Source: Symbiodinium natans (taxonomy: Eukaryota > Sar > Dinophyceae > Suessiales > Symbiodiniaceae). Taken from it: DNA of 64,000 nt. This document shows positions 3,480 through 48,557 of this stretch, in pieces. Both the position numbers and the translations under genes were made by a program. Below the pieces are notes generated by a model. The model saw nothing but the letters and a program-made list of their open reading frames with translations. It was not told the origin of the DNA and did no database searches. The stretch covers positions 186,001-250,000 of the forward strand of contig CAJNDS010002094.1 of NCBI GenBank assembly GCA_905221605.1, written 5' to 3'. Position 1 is the first letter of the stretch; each line of letters begins with the position of its first letter.

Positions 3480-3830
3480 CAGCAGACATGGCCGGGCACG
3501 GTGTATGTTGCGATATCACGCACAAGGCATTGGGTTCTCAAGACAAGGGGCGCCATTGGTTATTGCATTGGGTTGCGCATGCTGTGATAACACACACACA
3601 CAAGACGGCTAGTACGAGGTGTGGCGGTGTGTCTTGTGATATCCTACACGAAACAGAGAACGATGGTGCTGCGGGCCTTGGGTTGTGTATGTTGTGATAA
3701 CGCACACCCACACCCACACCCACATACACACGCACACACACACACACTCACACAGAGACACACACACACACAAGGCAGGACTAAAAGCTCATACAGGCAT
3801 CGGCGTGTGTGCGTGTGTATGATGTGACCA
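3480..3830. repeat. Degenerate repeat with TGTGATA(A/T)C core and CA runs
   Basis: The word TTGCGATATCACGCACA near 3509 recurs in altered form (TGTGATAACACACAC near 3581, TGTGATATCC near 3634, TGTGATAACGCACAC near 3692, then TGATGTGACC near 3820). The copies are separated by about 55-130 nt and followed by (CA)n tracts. I see no gene between 2881 and 4150. Confidence 0.6.
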
Positions 3831-4199
3831 GTCTCTCGAACGGTTCAAAACACACGTTAATACCAACACGAGCGGCCGTCCTTTGCGAGGGCTTGCTTTC
3901 TGAAAAGGGGGGGGCCGTTACAGAACGACGGAAATTTCACAGTGCAAGGCTTGTTCGATGCCACACTATTTGTTGGTGTTCATCATAAATCTTGATTCCA
4001 AGCTTGGCACACCCCTCCCCAGCCCGTTCCTGGACTGTACTCAGCAACTGCCCATGACCAGAGTGCCCAGATGTTCCCGGTGGCTTCAGCAGCTAAATCA
4101 GAACTGTCAGAGCTATCGCACCGTTGATCGCTGCGGGGCAAGGTTCAGGGGACGTGAATCAGTGAAGCAACTGAGTCAGCAGCCTTCATCGTGGTGGTC

Positions 4200-15720: not shown

Positions 15721-16302
15721 ATGGCCGGCTTCTGGGCACGGCCAAATCTCGCATCAAGTTTGCTGCTGCGCACCTACGAAAAACTTCCAAGCATAGACCC
15801 TGCGAGCCCATGTCAATGCTAACATCACAATGCCAAAGCTTCAGTATACATGGCTCTACACTCTGCACGTCTCCACGGCGTTGCCGCATTACTGCCAGAT
15901 GCTAAACTCTGCAAATTCTGCGCATCACGACCCGATCGTACATCGCAGATGCTGGTGCCTCAGCCTTGACCACAGGCGTTGCCGAGCTACCCTCTGTCCA
16001 AAACGGCGCCAGTAGGGATCCCAGTCGAGCCTGGTGGACACGGCGAAACTTGCGGGCTGCTGGTGGCTCGAGCGCAGCTCGCCTGATGGTTGTCTTCCGA
16101 ATCCTGAATCTGCAGCAGGGAGGAGGTGAAGCCCTGCAGGGCCGCCTTGCCGAAAGGCACATCATTGAATCATGCTCCTGAACCGGAGGCTCCGGTGGTC
16201 TCCGCCTCCCAGCTTGCGAGCTGCCGCAGATCCGTGGGATATCCCAGCAGCAAGATACCCTTCGGCCTGGCAACAGAATCAGATGCAGAATTTTGACAGG
16301 TG

Positions 16303-16375
16303 GAGGGGGGGGGGGAAGGGGAGGGGGGAAGGGGAGGGGGGAAGGGGAGGGGGGAAGGGGAGGGGGGAAGGGGGT
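16303..16375. repeat. G-rich tandem repeat (GGGGAGGGGGGAA-like)
   Basis: A 13-nt purine unit is repeated about five times directly outside the left 34-nt terminal repeat. Each unit carries G runs of four to six, so G-quadruplex formation is possible. Confidence 0.9.
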
Positions 16376-16380
16376 GGGTG

Positions 16381-16414
16381 GCTTAAATAGGGTCTATTTG
16401 GAAGCTGAGACTCG
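16381..16414 (+). repeat. Left terminal inverted repeat, 34 nt
   Basis: Identical to the reverse complement of 24869-24902. The related word TTGGAAGCTGAGA recurs at about 16454. Confidence 0.85.
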
Positions 16415-16499
16415 GGTTTTTAGACTAACCAATGCGTCTCCACGAGAGCATTCTTGGAAGCTGAGAGTGGTGTTTTTGTGTGGTAGATACAAAGGAAAG

Positions 16500-19400
16500 G
16501 GCATAAGAAAGTAGCGAAAGGAGCTCCTCAATTCCCTTCCTTATCTCCTATGCTCTTTTCCTTATTCATTGCAACAGGAGAAATCAGGAAAAGGGCCTCC
16601 ATTCCCCTCTTGTTCTTCCTTTCTTGTGTTTTTGTCATTTAAAGGGGAACGGGAGAAGAGAAGGGAAAGAGAAGGAGACAGGAGAGATAAAAGGAAGACA
16701 ATTTTAATGGGAAGAGCCAAGAAAAGAATAGAAAAAGATGAACAAAGAAGATGGAGAGACAAAACAAGGCGCAAAGAAAATGGCACTCTTCTTTATCTAT
16801 CCTCTCTCCCTTCTCTCTCCCTTCCCTCTTTCTTTTCGAAACAGAAAAACGAAAAAGGAAGAACTTGAAAAGGAGAAGGGTAAGGAAAAGAGCAGAAGAG
16901 ACAGGCCGAAAAGAGGGATATGATGAAGTATGGGCAATGTCCACGCGCAAGGAGTCACCCTCTGCTTACCCTTCCACTGCTTTATCATACAAGTTCCTTT
17001 CTTGTGTTATATTAGTTAAAAGGTAACAGAAGGAGAGAAGGGCAAGGGAAGTGAGAGAGGAGAGACAACAAGGAGGCCATTTGAATTTTCTGGAGGGGTA
17101 CTGAAAAGAAGAGAAGACACAATAAACAAGGAGACGGATAGCACTCTTCTTTATCTATCATCTCTCCCTTCCTTGTCTCTCGCTTTTCCCTCTATAATTA
17201 AAAAAATAGGTGCCCTCTCCCTCTTCAGGAAGCCCCCTTGCCCTTATTTTGCTAGCTTTCTGAAACGACAAGGAAAACAACACATAGAAAGAGAGGAAAG
17301 GGAATGAAACAATAGGCAGTGGAGCTCTTCAGTGTCTTTACCTATCTCTTTTCTTCTTTTTCTTTTTCATTCAATAAGGAAAAGAAGCTTCCTTTGGTGT
17401 GATTTTGAGATTTAAAAGAGAACAAGAGAAGAGAAGGGAGAGAGAAAGGAGAGAGGAGAGATCAAAAGGAAACAATTTTCATGGGAAGAGCAATGACAAT
17501 CATGGAAGAGAAATGAAGACAGGAGAGGGAGGTGCAAAATCAGGCAAAGAGAAGATGGTGCTCGTTTTCTTCTTTCCTCTCTTTCTTATCTTTCCCTTTC
17601 AAATAAAAAACAAAAGGAAGAACAATGAACATGTAAAGGAACCCATTTTCTTTTTTCCGCTTGGGAACAAGGAAAAGAACAGAGGCGATAGGGCGAGAGG
17701 AGGGATTTGCTGCAGCGTGGGGAGGGTCTACGGACAAGGAGCCAACCCCGCTCACTTTCCCCATCCATTGGAAAAGAAAGGAACATGGCCTCCATTCCCC
17801 TCTTGTTCTTCCTTTCTTGCGTTTTTGTCATTTAAAGGGGAACAGGAGAAGAGAAGGGAGAGAGAAGGAGAGAGGAGAGACAAAAGGATTGCATTGTTAA
17901 TGGGAAGAGCAAAGAAAAGAATAGAAGAGAGATGAATAGAGAAGAGGGAGAGACAAAACAAGGCGCAGAGAAGATGGCACTCACTCTTTATCTATCCTCT
18001 CTTCCTTATCTCTCCCTGCCATCTTTCTTTTCGAAATAAGAAAACAAAAAGGAAGAACTATGAGAAGGAGAAGGGTAAGGACAAGAGCAGAAGAGACAGG
18101 CCGAAAAGAGGGATATGATGAAGTATGGGCAAGGACCACGCGCAAGGAGTCACCCTCTGCTTACCCTTCCACTGCTTTATCATACAAGTTCCTTTCTTGT
18201 GTTATATTCGTTAAAAGGTAACAGAAGGAGAGAAGGGCAAGGGAAGTGAGAGAGGAGAGACAACAAGGAGGCCATTTGAATTTTCTGGAGGGGTACTGGA
18301 AAGAAGAGAAGACACAATAAACAAGGAGACGGATAGCACTCTTCTTTATCTATCATCTCTCCCTTCCTTGTCTCTCGCTTTTCCCTCTATAATTAAAAAA
18401 ATAGGTGCCCTCTCTCCTCTTCAGGAAGCCCCCTTGCCCTTATTTTGCTAGCTTTCTGAAACGACAAGGAAAACAACACATAGAAAGAGAGGAAAGGGAA
18501 TGAAACAATAGGCAGTGGAGCTCTTCAGTGTCTTTACCTATCTCTTTTCTTCTTTTTCTTTTTCATTCAATAAGGAAAAGAAGCTTCCTTTGGTGTGATT
18601 TTGAGATTTAAAAGAGAACAAGAGAAGAGAAGGGAGAGAGAAAGGAGAGAGGAGAGATCAAAAGGAAACAATTTTCATGGGAAGAGCAATGATAGTCATG
18701 GAAGAGAAATGAAGACAGGAGAGGGAGGTGCAAAATCAGGCAAAGAGAAGATGGTGCTCGTTTTCTTCTTTCCTCTCTTTCTTATCTTTCCCTTTCAAAT
18801 AAAAAACAAAAGGAAGAACAATGAACATGTAAAGGAACCCATTTTCTTTTTTCCGCTTGGGAACAAGGAAAAGAACAGAGGCGATAGGGCGAGAGGAGGG
18901 ATTTGCTGCAGCGTGGGGAGGGTCTACGGACAAGGAGCCAACCCCGCTCACTTTCCCCATCCATTGGAAAAGAAAGGAACATGGCCTCCATTCCCTCTTG
19001 TTCTTCCTTTCTTGTGTTTTTGTCATTTGAAGGGGAACAGGAGAAGAGAAGGGAGAGAGAAGGAGACAGGAGAGATAAACGGAAGACAATTTTAATGGGA
19101 AGAGCCAAGAAAAGAATAGAAGAGAGATGAACAAAGAAGATGGAGAGACAAAACAAGGCGCGAAGAAAATGGCACTCTTCTTTATCTATCCTCTCTCTCT
19201 TCTCTCTCCTTTCCCTCTTTCTTTTCGAAACAGAAAAACTAAAAAGGAAGAACTTGAAAAGGAGAAGGGTAAGGAAAAGAGCACAAGAGACAGGCCGAAA
19301 AGAGGGATATGATGACGTATGGGCAAGGTCCACGCGCAAGGAGTCACCCTCTGCTTGCCCTTCCACTGCTTTATCATACAAGTTCCTTTCTTGTGTTATA

Positions 19401-21722
19401 TTAGTTAAAAGGTAACAGAAGGAGAGAAGGGCAAGGGAAGTGAGAGAGGAGAGACAACAAGGAGGCCATTTGAATTTTCTGGAGGGGTACTGAAAAGAAG
19501 AGAAGACACAATAAACAAGGAGACGGATAGCACTCTTCTTTATCTATCATCTCTCCCTTCCTTGTCTCTCGCTTTTCCCTCTATAATTAAAAAATAGGTG
19601 CCCTCTCTCCTCTTCAGGAAGCCCCCTTGCCCTTATTTTGCTAGCTTTCTGAAACGACAAGGAAAACAACACATAGAAAGAGAGGAAAGGGAATGAAACA
19701 ATAGGCAGTGGAGCTCTTCAGTGTCTTTACCTATCTCTTTTCTTCTTTTTCTTTTTCATTCAATAAGGAAAAGAAGCTTCCTTTGGTGTGATTTTGAGAT
19801 TTAAAAGAGAACAAGAGAAGAGAAGGGAGAGAGAAAGGAGAGAGGAGAGATCAAAAGGAAACAATTTTCATGGGAAGAGCAATGAAAATCATGGAAGAGA
19901 AATGAAGACAGGAGAGGGAGGTGCAAAATCAGGCAAAGAGAAGATGGTGCTCGTTTTCTTCTTTCCTCTCTTTCTTATCTTTCCCTTTCAAACAAAAAAC
20001 AAAAGGAAGAACAATGAACATGTAAAGGAACCCATTTTCTTTTTCCGTTTGGGAACAAGGAAAAGAACAGAGGCGATAGGGCGAGAGGAGGGGATTTGCT
20101 GCAGCGTGGGGAGGGTCTACGGACAAGGAGCCAACCCGCTCACTTTCCCATCCATTGGAAAAGAAAGGAACATGGCCTCCATTCCCCTCTTGTTCTTCCT
20201 TTCTTGCGTTTTTGTCATTTAAAGGGGAACAGGAGAAGAGAAGGGAGAGAGAAGGAGAGAGGAGAGACAAAAGGATTGCATTGTTAATGGGAAGAGCAAA
20301 GAAAAGAATAGAAGAGAGATGAATAGAGAAGAGGGAGAGACAAAACAAGGCGCAGAGAAGATGGCACTCACTCTTTATCTATCCTCTCTTCCTTATCTCT
20401 CCCTGCCATCTTTCTTTTCGAAATAAGAAAACAAAAAGGAAGAACTATGAGAAGGAGAAGGGTAAGGAAAGGAACAGAAGAGATAGGCCGAGAGGAGGGG
20501 TATGATGAAGTATGCTTACCCTTCCACTGCCTTATCATACAAGTTCCTTTCTTGTGGTTTATCAGTCAGAAGGAAACAGAAGGAGAGAAGGGAAAGGGAA
20601 GTGAGAGGAGATAACAAGGATGCCATTTTTCTGGAAGCGCAACTGTACCGGAATGTGGCCACAACAAGCAGGCCAGGGAGGCTCAGGCGGGGCAAGTCTC
20701 TCCCTAATTAGAAAAAATCAACCTTGCTATTCACAGGTAGGCGCCCTTCTTCCTCTTCAGGAAATCGCCTTTCCCTTATTTTGTTATTTTGCTTTTTGAA
20801 GCGAATAAGAAAAACAACAAATAAGAAGAGAAGACAGGGAATGACTAGGTAAAGAGAGGAGCTTTTCAATTTCCTCCCTATCTCTTATGTTACTTTTCCT
20901 TCTTGGGCGGGTGTCCTTTTTTCTTCCTTGAAGATGCAGAAAACTATCAAAAAGGACACCCGTTCCATCGCCCACAATTCCCTTCCTTATCTCCTATGCT
21001 CTTTTCCTTATTCATTGCAACAGGAGAATTCAGGAAAAGGGCCTCCATTCCCCTCTTGTTCTTCCTTTCTTGTGTTTTTGTCATTTAAAGGGGAACAGGA
21101 GAAGAGAAGGCAAAGAGAAGGAGAGAGGAGAGATAAAAGGAACACAATGCTAATGGGAAGAGCCAAGAAAAGAATAGAAGAGAGATGAACAAAGAAGATG
21201 GAGAGACAAAACAAGGCGCAAAGAAGATGGCACTCTTCTTTATCTATCCTCTCTCCCTTCTCTCTCCCTTCCCTCTTTCTTATCGAAACAGAAAACGAAA
21301 AAGGAAGAACTTGAAAAGGAGAAGGGTAAGGACAAGAGCAGAAGAGACAGGCCAAAAAGAGGAATATGATGAACTGAAAAGAAGAGAAGACACAATAAAC
21401 AAGGAGACGGATAGCACTCTTCTTTATCTATCATCTCTCCCTTCCTTGTCTCTCGCTTTTCCCTCTATAATTAAAAAAATAGGTGCCCTCTCTCCTCTTC
21501 AGGAAGCCCCCTTGCCCTTATTTTGCTAGCTTTCTGAAACGACAAGGAAAACAACACATAGAAAGAAAGGAAAAGGAATGAAACAATAGGCAGTGGAGCT
21601 CTTCAGTGTCTTTACCTATCTCTTTTCTTCTTTTTCTTTTTCATTCAATAAGGAAAAGAAGCTTCCTTTGGTCCTTTGGTGTGATTTTGAGATTTAAAAG
21701 AGAACAAGAGAAGAGAAGGGAG
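16500..21722. repeat. Purine/pyrimidine-biased satellite, unit about 1.19 kb
   Basis: Landmarks recur at regular distance. GATTTTGAGATTTAAAAG occurs at about 17401, 18597 and 19790 (spacing 1196 and 1193) and again at about 21683 in a rearranged, shortened copy. AGTTCCTTTCTTGTG occurs near 16991, 18187, 19380 and 20540. Copies differ by scattered substitutions and small indels. Each unit alternates long GA-rich and CT-rich blocks. The many Arg/Lys/Glu- or Phe/Leu/Ser-rich open frames repeat with the unit and are composition artefacts. Confidence 0.92.
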
Positions 21723-21784
21723 ACCCGGGCTCGTAATTTAGTATTGAGGGGCAGGCCCGGGCTCGTGATTTAGCATCGGGGAAT

Positions 21785-22610
21785 TTAAAAAACCAATTTC
21801 ATTTCAATGTCCAGGGGCCCGATTTGGCCAAATTTTGCCGGGCAAAATTTGGCCAAATCGAGCCGCGCATTTCGCATCGCGTACGACGAGCAGCCCGATT
21901 TGGCCAAATTTTGCCCGCAGACTGCCCGGCAAAATTTGGCCAAATCGGGCTGCCCTTCGTATGCGATGAGAAATGCGCGGCTCGATGTGGCCAAATTTTG
22001 CCCGGAGGCTGCCCGGCAAAATCTGGCCAAATCCAGCCGCGCCTTTCTGGAGGCCCGAAATTATTTAAACTATCGCGGCTCGATTTGGCCAAATTTTGCC
22101 CGGAGGCTGCCCGGCAAAATTTGGCCAAATCGAGCCACGCATTTCTCATCGCATACGAAGGGCAGCCCGATTTGGCCAAATTTTGCCCGGAAGCTGCCCG
22201 GCAAAATTTGGCCAAATCGAGCCGCGAAAGTTTAAACAATTTCGGGCCTTCAGAAAGGCGCGGCTCGATTTGGCCAAATTTTGCCCGGAGGCTGCCCGGC
22301 AAAATTTGGCCAAATCGAGCCGCGCATTTCTCATCACGTTCGACGAGCAGCCCGATTTGGCCAAATTTTGCCCGCAGACTGCCCGGCAAAATCTGGCCAA
22401 ATCGAGCCGCGCCTTTCTGGAGGCCCGAAATTATTTAAACTATCGCGGCTCGATTTGGCCAAATTTTGCCGGGCAGTCTGCGGGCAAAATTTGGCCAAAT
22501 CGAGCCGCGCATTTCTCATGGCATACGAAGAGCAGCCCGATTTGGCCAAATTTTGCCCGCAGGCTGCCCGGCAAAATTTGGCCAAATCGAGCCGCGATAG
22601 TTTAAATTAT
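21785..22610. repeat. Nested palindrome array (ATTTGGCCAAATTTTGCC core)
   Basis: About nine copies of a palindromic core occur: ATTTGGCCAAATTTTGCC, a short centre, then its reverse complement. The spacers come in two kinds, one containing CATTTC.CATCGC.TACGA and one containing TTTCTGGAGGCCCGAAATT, and each kind occurs in both orientations, so larger palindromes enclose smaller ones. Both strands read as repeated WPNFA/GKIWPN-type peptides in several frames, a by-product of the symmetry and not evidence of protein. Confidence 0.93.
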
Positions 22611-24772
22611 TTAATTCTGGGAGGGGGGGGGGGCCTGGTCCTGCTGCTCCCCCCCCCCTTTTCGGATTTAAATTATGTTAATTTTTTTAAATGATTCAAA
22701 TTATTTAAATTATTTAATTCCAGGGGGGAACCGAAAAGGGGGGGGGGGGGCAGGCCCCACCCGGCCCCCTCCCCCTCCCAGAATTAAATAATGTTAAATA
22801 ATTTAAATCCGAAAGGGGTGTTCAGGATTTAAATTATTTAAATTATTTAATTCTGGGAGGGGGAGGGGGCCCGGTGGGGCCTGGCCCCCCCCCTTTTTCG
22901 GAATTTAAATTATTTAAATTTTTAAATTATTTAAATTATTTAAATTATTTATTTTAAATAATTTAAATCCGAAAAGGGGGGGGCCAGGCCCCACCGGGCC
23001 CCCTCCCCCTCCCAGAATTAAATAATTTAAATAATTTAAATCCTGAACACCCCTTTCGGATTTAAATTATTTAAATTATTTAATTCTGGGAGGGGGAGGG
23101 GGCCCGGTGGGGCCTGCCCCCCCCCCCTTTTCGGATTTAAATTATTTAAACTATTTAAATTATTTAAATTATTTAAATTATTTAATTCCAGGGGGGGAAT
23201 TAAATAATGTAAATAATTTAAATCTGAAAAGGGGGGTTCGGATTTAAATTATTTAAATTATTTAATTACCCCCCCCGGAATTAAATAGTTTAAATAATTT
23301 AAATAATTTAAATAATTTAAATAATTTAAATAATTTAAATAATTTAAATCCGAAAAGGGGAGGGGGGGCAGGCCCCACCAGGCCCCCTCCCAGAATTAAA
23401 TAATTTAATAATTTAAATCCGAAAGGGGTGTTCAGGATTTAAATTATTTAAATTATTTAATTCTGGGAGGGGGAGGGGGCCCGGTGGGGCCTGGCCCCCC
23501 CCCTTTTCGGATTTAAATTATTTAAATTATTTAAATTATTTAAATTATTTAAATTATTTAAATTATTTAAATTATTTAATTCCAGGGGGTGAATTAAATA
23601 ATTTAAATAATTTAAATCTGAAAGGGGGGGTTCGGATTTAAATTGTTTAAATTATTTAATTACCCCCCCCGGAATTAAATAGTTTAAATAATTTAAATAA
23701 TTTAAATAATTTAAATATTTTAAATCCGAAAAGGGGGGGGGGGGCCAGGCCCCACCAGGCCCCCTCCCCCTCCCAGAATTAAATAATTTAAATAATTTAA
23801 ATAATTTAAATCCGAAAGGGGTGTTCAGGATTTAAAGTATTTAAATTATATAATTCTGGGAGGGGGAGGGGGCCCGGTGGGGCCTGGCCCCCCCCCTTTT
23901 CGGATTTAAATTATTTAAATTATTTAAATTATTTAAATTATTTAAATTATTTACATTATTTAAAGTATTTAAATTATTTAAATTATTTAAATTATTTAAT
24001 TCCAGGGGGGGGAATTAAATAATTTAAATAATTTAAATCTGAAAGGGGGGGTTCGGATTTAAATTATTTAAATTATTTAATTCCCCCCCGGAATTAAATA
24101 ATTTAAATAATTTAAATAATTTAAATAATTTAAATAATTTAAATAATTTAAATAATTTAAATAATTAAAATAATTTAAATAATTTAAATAATTTAAATAA
24201 TTGAAATCCGAAAAGGGGGGGGGGCCAGGCCCCACCATGCCCCCTCCCCCTCCCAGAATTAAATAATTTAAATAATTTAAATCCGAAAGGGGTGTTCAGG
24301 ATTTAAATTATTTAAATTATTTAATTCTGGGAGGGGGAGGGGGCCCGGTGGGGCCTGCCCCCCCCCCTTTTCGGATTTAAATTATTTAAATTATTTAAAT
24401 TATTTAAATTATTTAAATTATTTAAATTATTTAAATTATTTAAATTATTTAAATTATTTTATTTATTCCGGTGGGGGGGAATTAAATAATTTAATAATTT
24501 AAATAATTTAAGTAATGTAAATAATTTAAATAATTTAAATCCGAAAAGGGGGGGGGGCAGGCCCCACCGGGCCCCCTCCCCCTCCCAGAATTAAATAATT
24601 TAAATAATTTAAATCCGAAAGGGGTGTTCAGGATTTAAATTATTTAAATTATTTAATTCTGGGAGGGGGAGGGGGCCCGGTGGGGCCTCCCCCCCCCCCC
24701 TTTTCGGATTTAAATTATTTAAATTATTTAAATTATTTAAATTATTTAAATTATTTAAATTATTTAATTCCT
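22611..24772. repeat. AT-rich (AAATTATTT)n / GC-rich palindromic array
   Basis: Runs of TTTAAATTATTTAAAT alternate with short G-rich or C-rich blocks such as GGGAGGGGGAGGGGGCCCGG. The junction around GAAAGGGGTGTTCAGGA is flanked by inverted arms about six times. No coding potential. Confidence 0.93.
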
Positions 24773-24796
24773 TGCCCCAGACCCCCCAGAAACGAT

Positions 24797-24900
24797 AATA
24801 GGGTCTATTTGGAAGTTGTCTCTTGTAAATAAGTATACGTTTTGGGGCCTTATTTCCTCTTTAAAACACGAGTCTCAGCTTCCAAATAGACCCTATTTAA
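24797..24900. repeat. Short hairpin-type repeat at the right end of the block
   Basis: AATAGGGTCTATTTGGAAG at about 24798 is the inverse of CTTCCAAATAGACCCTATT at about 24880-24898, leaving a loop of about 60 nt. The right terminal repeat is therefore also one arm of a roughly 100-nt inverted-repeat unit resembling a small MITE. Confidence 0.75.
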
Positions 24901-24902
24901 GC
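24869..24902 (-). repeat. Right terminal inverted repeat, 34 nt
   Basis: Exact reverse complement of 16381-16414. It is followed outward by a G-rich tract, as on the left side. Confidence 0.85.
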
Positions 24903-24917
24903 TGCACACGGGGGAAG

Positions 24918-24920
<3 letters not shown>

Positions 24921-24987
<67 letters not shown>
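24921..24987. repeat. Homopolymer of 67 G
   Basis: Sixty-seven consecutive G just outside the right terminal repeat. The length of such a run is unreliable in any assembly. It abuts the last recognisable exon of the minus-strand gene to its right. Confidence 0.9.
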
Positions 24988-46480: not shown

Positions 46481-48557
46481 TCACAAGGCCAGGCCTGTAT
46501 TGATGTCTGTGAGCAGCCCAGGGCCTTTGTAGACCAAGCCGGTGTAGACCTCTCCAAAGCCCATTGCTGGCCACGATGGCTCTTCACGAATTGTAATGAG
46601 TGTCCAAGAACAGCTGACACAAAACTTTCAAGTCACATCTGTTTCGTCGAGGTCTCTTGTCGTCGGCGTGAAGATCAAGAGCCAATCAAGATGGCATGTT
46701 CCATGCCCCAAACCACCTGGCTTGGCCTCCCAAAGCCCCAAAACATCCCAAGTCTCACATTCTCCCCCAACAACCGATTCAGTCTGCAAAAAAACAGATG
46801 CCGGGGGAGTCAGAAACCTGGTCGGGAACACGTGAAGAGGGGGAGAAGCAAGAGTTTGAGTCGGGGATGAGGGCGGCCCTATCGAGAAAGAGGGGGGGAC
46901 GAGTTGGAAGCACACGTAAGCTGTGGTTCTTCTTCCTACAAGAATTTCTGTGAAATGGCGAACCCTTTCGCGGAACCCTTCCGCGTTCCTTCCGCGAGTA
47001 CTGTTTCTACGCGTCCGCTTCGTTGCTTCCACGCTTCCGCGAACAGATTTGCGTAGTTTCGAAAAGCTTGCTTCCGCGATTTGGTCGGCAAGATATAACC
47101 TCGAACATGCGCCGGCTGGTCCAAAGCGAACGAGCTCGACGAAACACTGCTGAAACTTGGAGGGGGTTCGATCGCTACACGGACAAAACAGTTACGCACA
47201 CCCATGAGGTCCAGGTGTCGGTTTTGAAGGCTGCAGGCATCCCAGGTTCCCACGTCTACTACGCATGCGTCAGTATACGTCGCGTCATTGACCTCAGCGC
47301 CGCAACGCGTCATGCAAGTCGCGCCTCGACAAGACTTGCTCCGGCACGAATCTTCTCGTACGCAGCCTCCAAGCTGGGCATGCTAGAGCATTGGGGCAGC
47401 GTTTGAAGTGCAAAGACTATAGCGTGCCTCTGCACTATCAGTGCCCCCAACGCCAATGATGGGAAGTCTCCCACCTTTCATGGGAAGTTCACACAGTTGG
47501 TGAGTTATGGTGAGTTGGCCAACCTGCCTGTGGCTTCGAAAGCTGACCGTATGGCAGCAACGCTGCGGGCATGAATGACCCTGCCACTGACGCCACCCTT
47601 GCCAATGGCATCTGCAGCCTGTCGCCCGCTGCTGGACAGCTGCGCCTCTGGGTTCTTGATCGTGTTGGAGATGACCAGACCATCCACGACGTTTGCATCT
47701 TCGATAACTCTCAGAAGCTCTCGCTGACAAGCTCGCCCGTCTTCAGAGTCCGGGGTTGCCATGAGCTTGACCAGCACAGGCGGCGGAGCCTTCTCCCATT
47801 TCATCTCTTTCTTTTGTCTGGCAACAGCACTCAAGAGATCGGCTAATGCACTGGGCTCTTCAAATGTCTTTCCCTCCGCCGTATTGGGACACGAAACGTT
47901 AATCACGACAAAGTCGGCAAGGGGAGCCAAGGTTGTGAAGCTCTGGACAAAATCATCCACAGCGGCCGGCCCCACTATTGCAGGACTGTGTGTCTTGGCA
48001 ATGTTGATCCCTATAGGCGCACTTCCATCCGCACGAGAGAATGTCTTGAGGCGGGCTGCGACACACGCGGCACCCTCATTGTTCAGGCCCATGCAGTTGA
48101 TCACGGCTTGGTCACTGGGGATTCGCCAACATCGAGGCTTCTCATTCCCTGCTGCAGGTTCAGCAGAGATGGATCCAACTTCTGCAAAACCAAGCTCCAT
48201 GAACCCAAGTCGGTATAAAGGGACCTTGCCAACGTTGTAGAAACACAGGTTGGAAGTTTCCGCTAAACTTTTACGACATATGAAGTCACCCAAAAAAAAG
48301 GCTACTCCAGCAGCAGTGTCCAGCGCGGCATTCTTGTCAAATCCTGCCGCGATGCCAACCGGCATGTCCTGACACATCGAGAAATACATTCTACCCGCTA
48401 CGAGTCGCGGCACTATTGCTAGGAAGCCGAGGTCCTGACAAAGGTCAACCGCCCTCCAAACAAGCTTTGCCGCAAGCTCGGTCCAGGCGGAGTCGGCCTT
48501 GCTGCGGCCGGGCGTAGCAGCCAGTCCTTGGACAGCACGGGAAGCATCTAGGCTCAT
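46481..48557 (-). CDS. pyrD: Dihydroorotate dehydrogenase, class 2 type
   Basis: The enzyme oxidises dihydroorotate to orotate in pyrimidine synthesis; class 2 enzymes use FMN and a membrane quinone. The first frame begins at 48557, although the first exon may be shorter. VGIAAGFDKN is followed by MELGFAEVGSISAEP, PSDQAVINCMGLNN, GINIAKT, ADFVVINVSCPNTAEGK (the catalytic-loop region with serine as in class 2), PPPVLVKLMATPD and DGLVISNTIKN. It continues over short exons: 47474-47428 (GRLPIIGVGGTDSAE), 47366-47325 (AAYEKIRAGASLVE) and 46549-46481 (VYTGLVYKGPGLLTDINTGL, then stop). The joined reading follows the family order exactly. Three downstream introns start with GC. An 81-nt in-frame segment (48305-48225) is probably also an intron. 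No N-terminal membrane anchor is obvious, so the true start may lie further upstream. Confidence 0.92.

Follow-up and report, generated by a model that had tools for sequence, protein, structure and literature searches.

Nested palindromes in a dinoflagellate genome: a probable self-rearranging satellite inside a dispersed, transposon-like family

In a stretch of 64,000 nucleotides from the dinoflagellate Symbiodinium natans, in the following called the window, a region was noticed in which near-perfect palindromes alternate with spacers that are themselves present in both orientations. It was asked whether this nested symmetry is real, how it arose, and whether it indicates a mechanism of replication, hairpin copying or hairpin transposition, as an initial annotation had hinted. 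The half-core GATTTGGCCAAATTTTGCC was found 18 times in the window when up to 3 mismatches were allowed, every time within 21821-22588, and the expectation from 100 shuffles was 0. The 18 half-cores form nine palindromic cores, P1 to P9, which agrees with the earlier count of about nine. The arms of the cores are 19 nt long and consist of GATTTGGCCAAATTTTGCC and its complement, each arm contains the 12-nt palindrome ATTTGGCCAAAT, and in seven of the nine cores the two arms are perfectly complementary. The loop is asymmetric and 12 nt long in eight of the nine cores and is reduced to 1 nt in P1; among the eight 12-nt loops only that of P8 is inverted. Two spacers separate the cores, namely A with 37 nt (four forward, one reverse) and B with 48 nt (two forward, one reverse, and a cut-off reverse piece), and their occurrence in both orientations had been described correctly. 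The array has fixed periods of 87 (A plus P) and 98 (B plus P), and strong direct periods of 185 and 370 bp. The left limit that had been given for the feature was off by no more than about 30 nt; on the right the palindromes run on past 22610 into a second array.

21817-22612, unstranded: palindromic array 1, with the order P1 A+ P2 A- P3 B+ P4 A+ P5 B- P6 A+ P7 B+ P8 (loop inverted) A+ P9 B- (cut)
21821-21859, unstranded: core P1, loop cut to 1 nt
21897-21946, plus strand: core P2
21984-22033, plus strand: core P3, two arm mismatches
22082-22131, plus strand: core P4, with its loop at 22101-22112, of which another subfamily has the exact inverse
22169-22218, plus strand: core P5
22267-22316, plus strand: core P6
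22354-22403, plus strand: core P7, one arm mismatch
22452-22501, minus strand: core P8, loop opposite to those of the other seven loop-bearing cores
22539-22588, plus strand: core P9

The folding of array 1 as single-stranded DNA was predicted to yield -383 kcal/mol, compared with -166.3 +/- 6.4 kcal/mol for 20 shuffled sequences (z = -33.8). The window was also scanned for inverted repeats with exact arms of at least 16 nt and loops of at most 80 nt, low-complexity arms being filtered out. Beyond the region of 21.8-24.9 kb a single inverted repeat was found, which is CA-rich and lies at 3723-3821, and three first-order simulated sequences yielded none at the same settings. The half-core shuffles, the z-score of the fold and the scan of the simulated sequences rule out symmetry by chance, and the earlier statement that such symmetry exceeds chance was verified. 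A coding repeat was also considered. In array 1 several frames of either strand are mostly open; nevertheless coding is unlikely, since 185 bp, the period, is not divisible by three and the spacers flip. One open frame across array 1 had no match in Pfam, and no Rfam family matched the window at the gathering score. A search for a phage or plasmid origin gave no match, and the half-core was found in 0 viral contigs. Among bacterial and archaeal genomes, the exact 19-nt half-core was present in two contigs of metagenome-assembled bacteria (L001 6499-6517 and L002 7033-7051), which are probably chance matches in 257 billion bases.

Array 1 was found to lie between two terminal inverted repeats, which are exact over 34 bp at both ends, exact identity stopping thereafter. 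The palindromes therefore are not the ends of the element, which are these separate repeats at 16381 and 24902. Copies of the element share the end sequence TGTGCAGCTTAAATAGGGTCTATTTGGAAG..., beyond which their flanks differ; the window has this end at 24908 and its inverted counterpart at 16381. In its interior GA repeats occupy one side and palindromic arrays the other.

16381-24902, unstranded: the complete 8.5-kb element including both terminal inverted repeats, with no gene recognised
16381-16414, plus strand: left terminal inverted repeat GCTTAAATAGGGTCTATTTGGAAGCTGAGACTCG; the G-rich sequence in front of it ends in GGGTGGGTG
16564-21672, unstranded: GA/CT-rich tandem repeat with a period of about 1192-1196 bp, irregular near its right end
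21718-21781, plus strand: 32-nt repeat of the CCCGGGCTCGTGATTTAG type, two copies
22601-24769, unstranded: palindromic array 2, with (ATTTAAATT)n linkers and G-rich islands in both orientations
24797-24897, unstranded: terminal hairpin with 19-nt arms AATAGGGTCTATTTGGAAG and a loop of 63 nt
24869-24902, minus strand: right terminal inverted repeat; outside it come TGCACA and a G-rich run that extends to 24987

Half-cores are absent from the window outside of 16381-24902, and the element contains no long frames outside its repeats. Elsewhere in the window, frames match a quinone-type dihydroorotate dehydrogenase, an AAA ATPase and glutaredoxin 2. The dehydrogenase gene lies at 47325-48390 on the minus strand, and its next exon seems to be joined via a GC donor (AGAG|GCACGC), as read by eye.

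The second array lies directly to the right of array 1. Its sequence is different, its linkers are AT-rich, and its design is alike. Its loop R, an 18-nt island, is inverted at 23042-23059, i.e., in one of the six window copies, and across eight loci it is inverted in four of 36 copies of the exact motif. Array 2 thus is a different sequence with the same architecture and behaves like array 1 in loop inversion. The motif ATTATTTAAACTAT is common to spacer B and array 2, its reverse complement is likewise present in array 2, and at the junction array 1 runs out within a B spacer. The common motif and the position of the junction suggest that the two arrays grew side by side.

The genome, 759 Mb in 2543 contigs, was searched with an array query of 826 nt. 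For 40 scored of 555 candidate places 150 matches were obtained. The best match at each of these 40 places had an identity of 91-100% over at least 617 of the 826 query bases, the window's own match included, and at the best eight places, again including the window, at least 711 query bases were covered. The same core, for which a search elsewhere had been proposed, is thus widely present. Twenty fetched neighbourhoods were compared, and in the window-type copies the similarity spans the GA-rich repeats, array 1 and array 2. The window and L011 share 5.6 kb at 99.5% identity, and the window and L012 share 16861-24771 at 91.7%. The order of the nine cores is identical at these two loci, which lie on two other contigs (C1890 and C746) and have other flanks. 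Additional core arrays, which are second, partial or rearranged ones, were observed close by in L014 (6767-6892), L020 (2387-3159), L021 (7988-8482), L025 (6393-6626) and L030 (1167-1662). The genome also holds 205 exact copies of the dinoflagellate spliced-leader sequence and 0 copies of the reversed control, from which a dinoflagellate host was concluded.

A 27-nt piece of the element end was found in 459 exact copies in the genome (226 forward and 233 reverse), and the reversed pattern used as a control in none. Among the first 100 of the 459 ends listed, 25 adjacent pairs point inward and are 5.4-12.9 kb apart (24 of them 5.4-9.8 kb), compared with three outward pairs. Of 20 neighbourhoods of array copies, 19 contain at least one end motif in the stretch fetched; the exception, L013, reaches a contig end. 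The outer flanks of 24 ends were mostly unrelated. Similar flanks were found in the duplicated segments L018/L019 and L021/L030, which share flanks and are not independent loci, and at ends lying in the family's own arrays (L022, L025 and L030). Short matches connect five outer flanks, of which at least three are TTTAGGG-like. Such repeats, of the interstitial telomere type, flank L017, L029, L031, L032 and L033, at L032 on both sides.

All 38 element ends that were read abut G/C runs. Of the nine GTGGGTG ends, eight border a G-run on the outside and one (C565) a C-run; of the 29 TGTGCA ends, among which two pairs share flanks, 15 border a C-run, 13 a G-run and one a run of mixed type. In the window the G/C-rich flanks are at 16302-16380 and 24909-24987, and outside the right end the poly-G proper extends from 24917 to 24987. 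In eight cases both ends of one element could be compared. The run type is the same on both sides in five of them (window, L032, L038, L039 and C565), which is what insertion into a single G- or C-run would give, and differs between the sides in three (C1719, L031 and L037). Because the ends abut G/C runs, no target-site duplication is readable. A search for an empty site with the joined window flanks matched in the genome only the two flanks of the window itself. The G/C runs at the ends might reflect a target preference or a tailing of the ends. It is tempting to speculate, albeit with considerable doubt, that a dinoflagellate transposon family has its ends at poly-G/poly-C tracts, either because homopolymers serve as targets or because tailed ends are captured, and carries self-inverting palindromic satellites in which the loop orientations form a readable and reversible record of template switching for each copy.

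To characterize how the arrays differ, eleven copies were aligned to the window, five of the window type (L011, L012, L013, L015 and L016) and six of a second subfamily (L018, L020, L023, L024, L027 and L031). All six copies of the second subfamily have the exact inverse of the 12-nt P4 loop (22101-22112), and none of the five window-type copies does; the number of independent inversion events is small. Apart from the loop, L018 differs from the window by just nine single-base changes over about 630 shared nt, and for that reason it is not credible that six chance substitutions gave a perfect reversal of the loop. Whole units were also gained or lost, the insertions measuring, relative to the window, exactly 87 nt or 98 nt. 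Differences by the 98-nt unit (B plus P) were found in two of the eleven copies (L015 and L016) and by the 87-nt unit (A plus P) in four (L020, L024, L027 and L031). Two further copies, L013 and L023, are messy near P8-P9, with neither a clean flip nor a clean gain of a unit. The module strings of the copies are one theme with variations, in which spacers, loops and copy number vary. The flip of the loop is seen in clean pairwise comparison; the flips of A and B are inferred from the module order.

The two arms of each core were then compared with one another. Counting was confined to 50-nt cores with at most 4 mismatches per arm, and the foreign L001 and L002 were left out, as were L003-L010, short stretches of places already represented by the window and L011-L017. 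The fetched copies contained 223 cores, many of them near-identical, which were reduced to 33 distinct ones. Among these 33, not a single variant was matched by a compensatory one in the other arm, and 35 variants were present in one arm only; the expectation for paired variants is 0.69 if the arms are independent. Arm-to-arm copying therefore is rare compared with mutation, and the idea that hairpin copying keeps the arms perfect is not supported. The exact inversion at 22101-22112 is that expected of spacer inversion by template switching, and the homogenisation of the arms that this model predicts is absent, which counts against it. Polymerase switching and recombination between the arms are equally good candidates and are indistinguishable from the present data.

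Seven elements with both ends were available for an inspection of the interior, namely the window element, L031, L032, L037, L038, L039 and C565 (L035 plus L036), which contain 18, 16, 2, 10, 19, 13 and 16 half-cores, respectively; in L032 a gap of 100 N lies beside the two half-cores. Further satellites in the interior have units of 55 bp, of 31 bp or, where GA-rich, of about 0.9-1.2 kb, and another consists of AT linkers with G-islands. A 31-bp relative of the CCCGGGCTCGTGATTTAG-type repeat forms a longer array in L031 (2635-2972). In L038 an extra 116-bp tandem repeat with 4.8 copies was observed at 3514-4074, which is absent from the two reference elements compared. No transposase was recognised among the longest open frames of the seven elements, and an assignment as autonomous transposon of the terminal-inverted-repeat order was rejected on this ground. 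Ten frames of five elements (window, L031, L032, L037 and L038) had no Pfam match above the cut-off, and the strongest matches below it came from a low-complexity frame of L038. Frames of more than 400 aa were present only in C565 (L035 1931-5372). They are related to proteins that are repeated in the genome, with frames of up to 2655 aa. Four frames of the insert in C565 gave only weak Pfam matches below the cut-off, among which were coiled-coil-like families and a CCCH zinc finger. As a candidate autonomous partner the 12.9-kb copy in C565 was rejected; from the weak finger match and the related repeated proteins, our guess is that its insert is a nested retrotransposon.

Taken together, array 1 is probably a palindromic minisatellite that is rearranged by direct and inverted pairing and dispersed by its carrier, a large and apparently non-autonomous dinoflagellate element with terminal inverted repeats, in whose interior it lies. 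Array 1 is enclosed by terminal inverted repeats, hundreds of such element ends exist in the genome, copies that are nearly identical have different flanks, and the arrays differ by whole core-plus-spacer units and by an exact inversion of a loop. The element would be moved, or would have been moved formerly, by a transposase supplied in trans, and the array would have spread with it. Because each core is nearly the same on both strands, neighbouring cores would serve both as direct and as inverted repeats. Units could be added or removed where direct copies pair, by slippage or unequal exchange, and pairing of inverted arms or template switching could turn over the 12-nt loop within a core or the 37- or 48-nt spacer between cores, so that the flips of the loop, of A and of B would all be covered. 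The nested symmetry would thus be a by-product of the pairing process, without being a selected structure. The lack of a transposase and of a readable target-site duplication speaks against this explanation, as do the missing homogenisation of the arms, the small number of independent inversion events and the irregular differences of L013 and L023. Of the mechanisms hinted at initially, two parts stood, i.e., a transposon-like element is involved, and the symmetry is tied to a rearrangement of inverted arms, as seen in the exact inversion of the 12-nt loop between the copy groups.

A selected function of the palindromes, as binding sites or as hairpin RNA for transposition, replication or silencing, would offer a different reason for paired arms, and we regard it as unlikely. 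Perfect 19-nt arms are present in 157 of the 223 cores, many of which are near-identical, and in the window the arms are less variable than the spacers (3 of 342 versus 15 of 329 positions, p = 0.003, counted relative to references chosen by the analyst). Low arm variation could reflect selection, or it could merely mirror exchange along an array in which 18 copies are homogenised. Selection for pairing would be at odds with the missing compensatory pairs (0 of 35), with the variation of spacers, loops and copy number between copies and with the lack of an Rfam match at the gathering score in the window. L032 has just two half-cores, although a 100-N gap lies beside them. Another reading holds that the whole stretch was copied back on itself once or several times at a fork or a break, leaving long inverted arms. 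Array 1 indeed contains what look like inverted arms, with lengths of 208, 162 and 152 nt and identities of 88-89%, the longest being 21928-22135 and 22165-22372, where similarity ends at the loops of the next pair, P2/P7. The mirrored cores P3/P6 and P4/P5 lie fully inside these 208-nt arms, and their loops point in the same direction where a foldback predicts opposite ones; a single long foldback was rejected on this basis, and the strong direct periods also argue against such copying, which has little probability.

Repeated insertion of the cores themselves as small transposons, of the foldback or miniature type, would be in line with the dispersal of the array copies. Yet the cores come with the spacers A and B at the fixed periods, the clean insertions and deletions comprise whole core-plus-spacer units, and in the window half-cores are confined to the element; this origin is very improbable. 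The duplication or collapse of one palindrome during assembly was likewise considered. Such arrays trouble assembly, and the related element L032 has its 100-N gap next to a core. Conversely, the same order of nine cores recurs on C1890 and C746 within other flanks, and the copies within an array differ by point changes. Judged from the assembled contigs alone, an artefact appears to be most unlikely. The nested palindromes are real and far beyond chance, and the best account of them is a palindromic satellite that rearranges itself within a dispersed family of transposon-like elements.

With its facing terminal inverted repeats and its near-identical copies dispersed in unrelated flanks, the element shows two features of a non-autonomous DNA transposon of the terminal-inverted-repeat order. 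Several other classes were rejected. Miniature inverted-repeat transposable elements (MITEs) are short, with less than about 800 bp, and the 25 inward end pairs with distances of 5.4-12.9 kb are too long for this class. Classical satellite DNA forms long tandem arrays of many kb, and array 1 has about 0.8 kb and is dispersed. A Polinton or an integrated DNA virus, which would have polymerase, capsid or integrase genes between its terminal repeats, does not fit an element in the window that has no long frame outside its repeats and four open frames with no Pfam match above the cut-off. The foldback class (FB/Tetris), in which long terminal inverted repeats consist of tandem repeats and mirror each other, was dismissed as well, since the exact terminal inverted repeat ends after 34 bp and the two sides of the element hold different repeats. 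A published description of the palindromes or of the element was not found in the open-licence literature, which was the scope of this search. In the accessible text of that literature the core sequence occurs in one paper only, on soybean, and the end sequence in none.

Short-spacer inversions between inverted repeats are usually documented case by case. With many palindrome copies in one genome, the rates of loop and spacer inversion, of unit gain and loss and of point changes could be compared on one tree. In addition, a large and apparently gene-free mobile family of a dinoflagellate links satellite DNA, transposon ends and G/C homopolymers. Helentrons are of the rolling-circle type, for which terminal inverted repeats are not expected, and the element differs from them in having such repeats. 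It resembles the satellite-carrying, non-autonomous Helentrons of the Pacific oyster, as far as the available part of that report describes them, in that short satellite-like arrays are dispersed by a non-autonomous element (PMC7492417).

In yeast, template switching between short inverted repeats leads to an exact inversion of the spacer, while arms of more than 9 bp remain unchanged, and in the accessible part of the study the inverted spacers gave substitutions of 2-5 bp inside genes (PMC8604942). The exact inversion between unchanged inverted arms at 22101-22112 is alike in this respect. Unlike the cases in that part of the study (PMC8604942), it concerns a 12-nt loop, and by inference spacers of 37 and 48 nt, in repeated non-coding DNA, and arm homogenisation is absent. 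The loop inversion may thus resemble the spacer inversions of yeast, at a larger scale and in repeated DNA. Tetris of Drosophila virilis is a foldback transposon for which the available part of the description gives repeats within terminal inverted repeats of up to 1,735 bp and target duplications of 8-10 bp (PMC4079207). The element in the window differs in its 34-bp terminal inverted repeats, in its palindromic arrays lying toward one end, in repeat units that are themselves palindromes and in its unreadable target duplication. Like Tetris, as portrayed there, it appears to be gene-free, ends in terminal inverted repeats, is modular and varies in tandem-repeat number between copies, and an autonomous copy has been found for neither; Tetris can seed satellite arrays (PMC4079207). 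By analogy, a non-autonomous element with terminal inverted repeats that carries satellites, as does Tetris, may be the closest working likeness.
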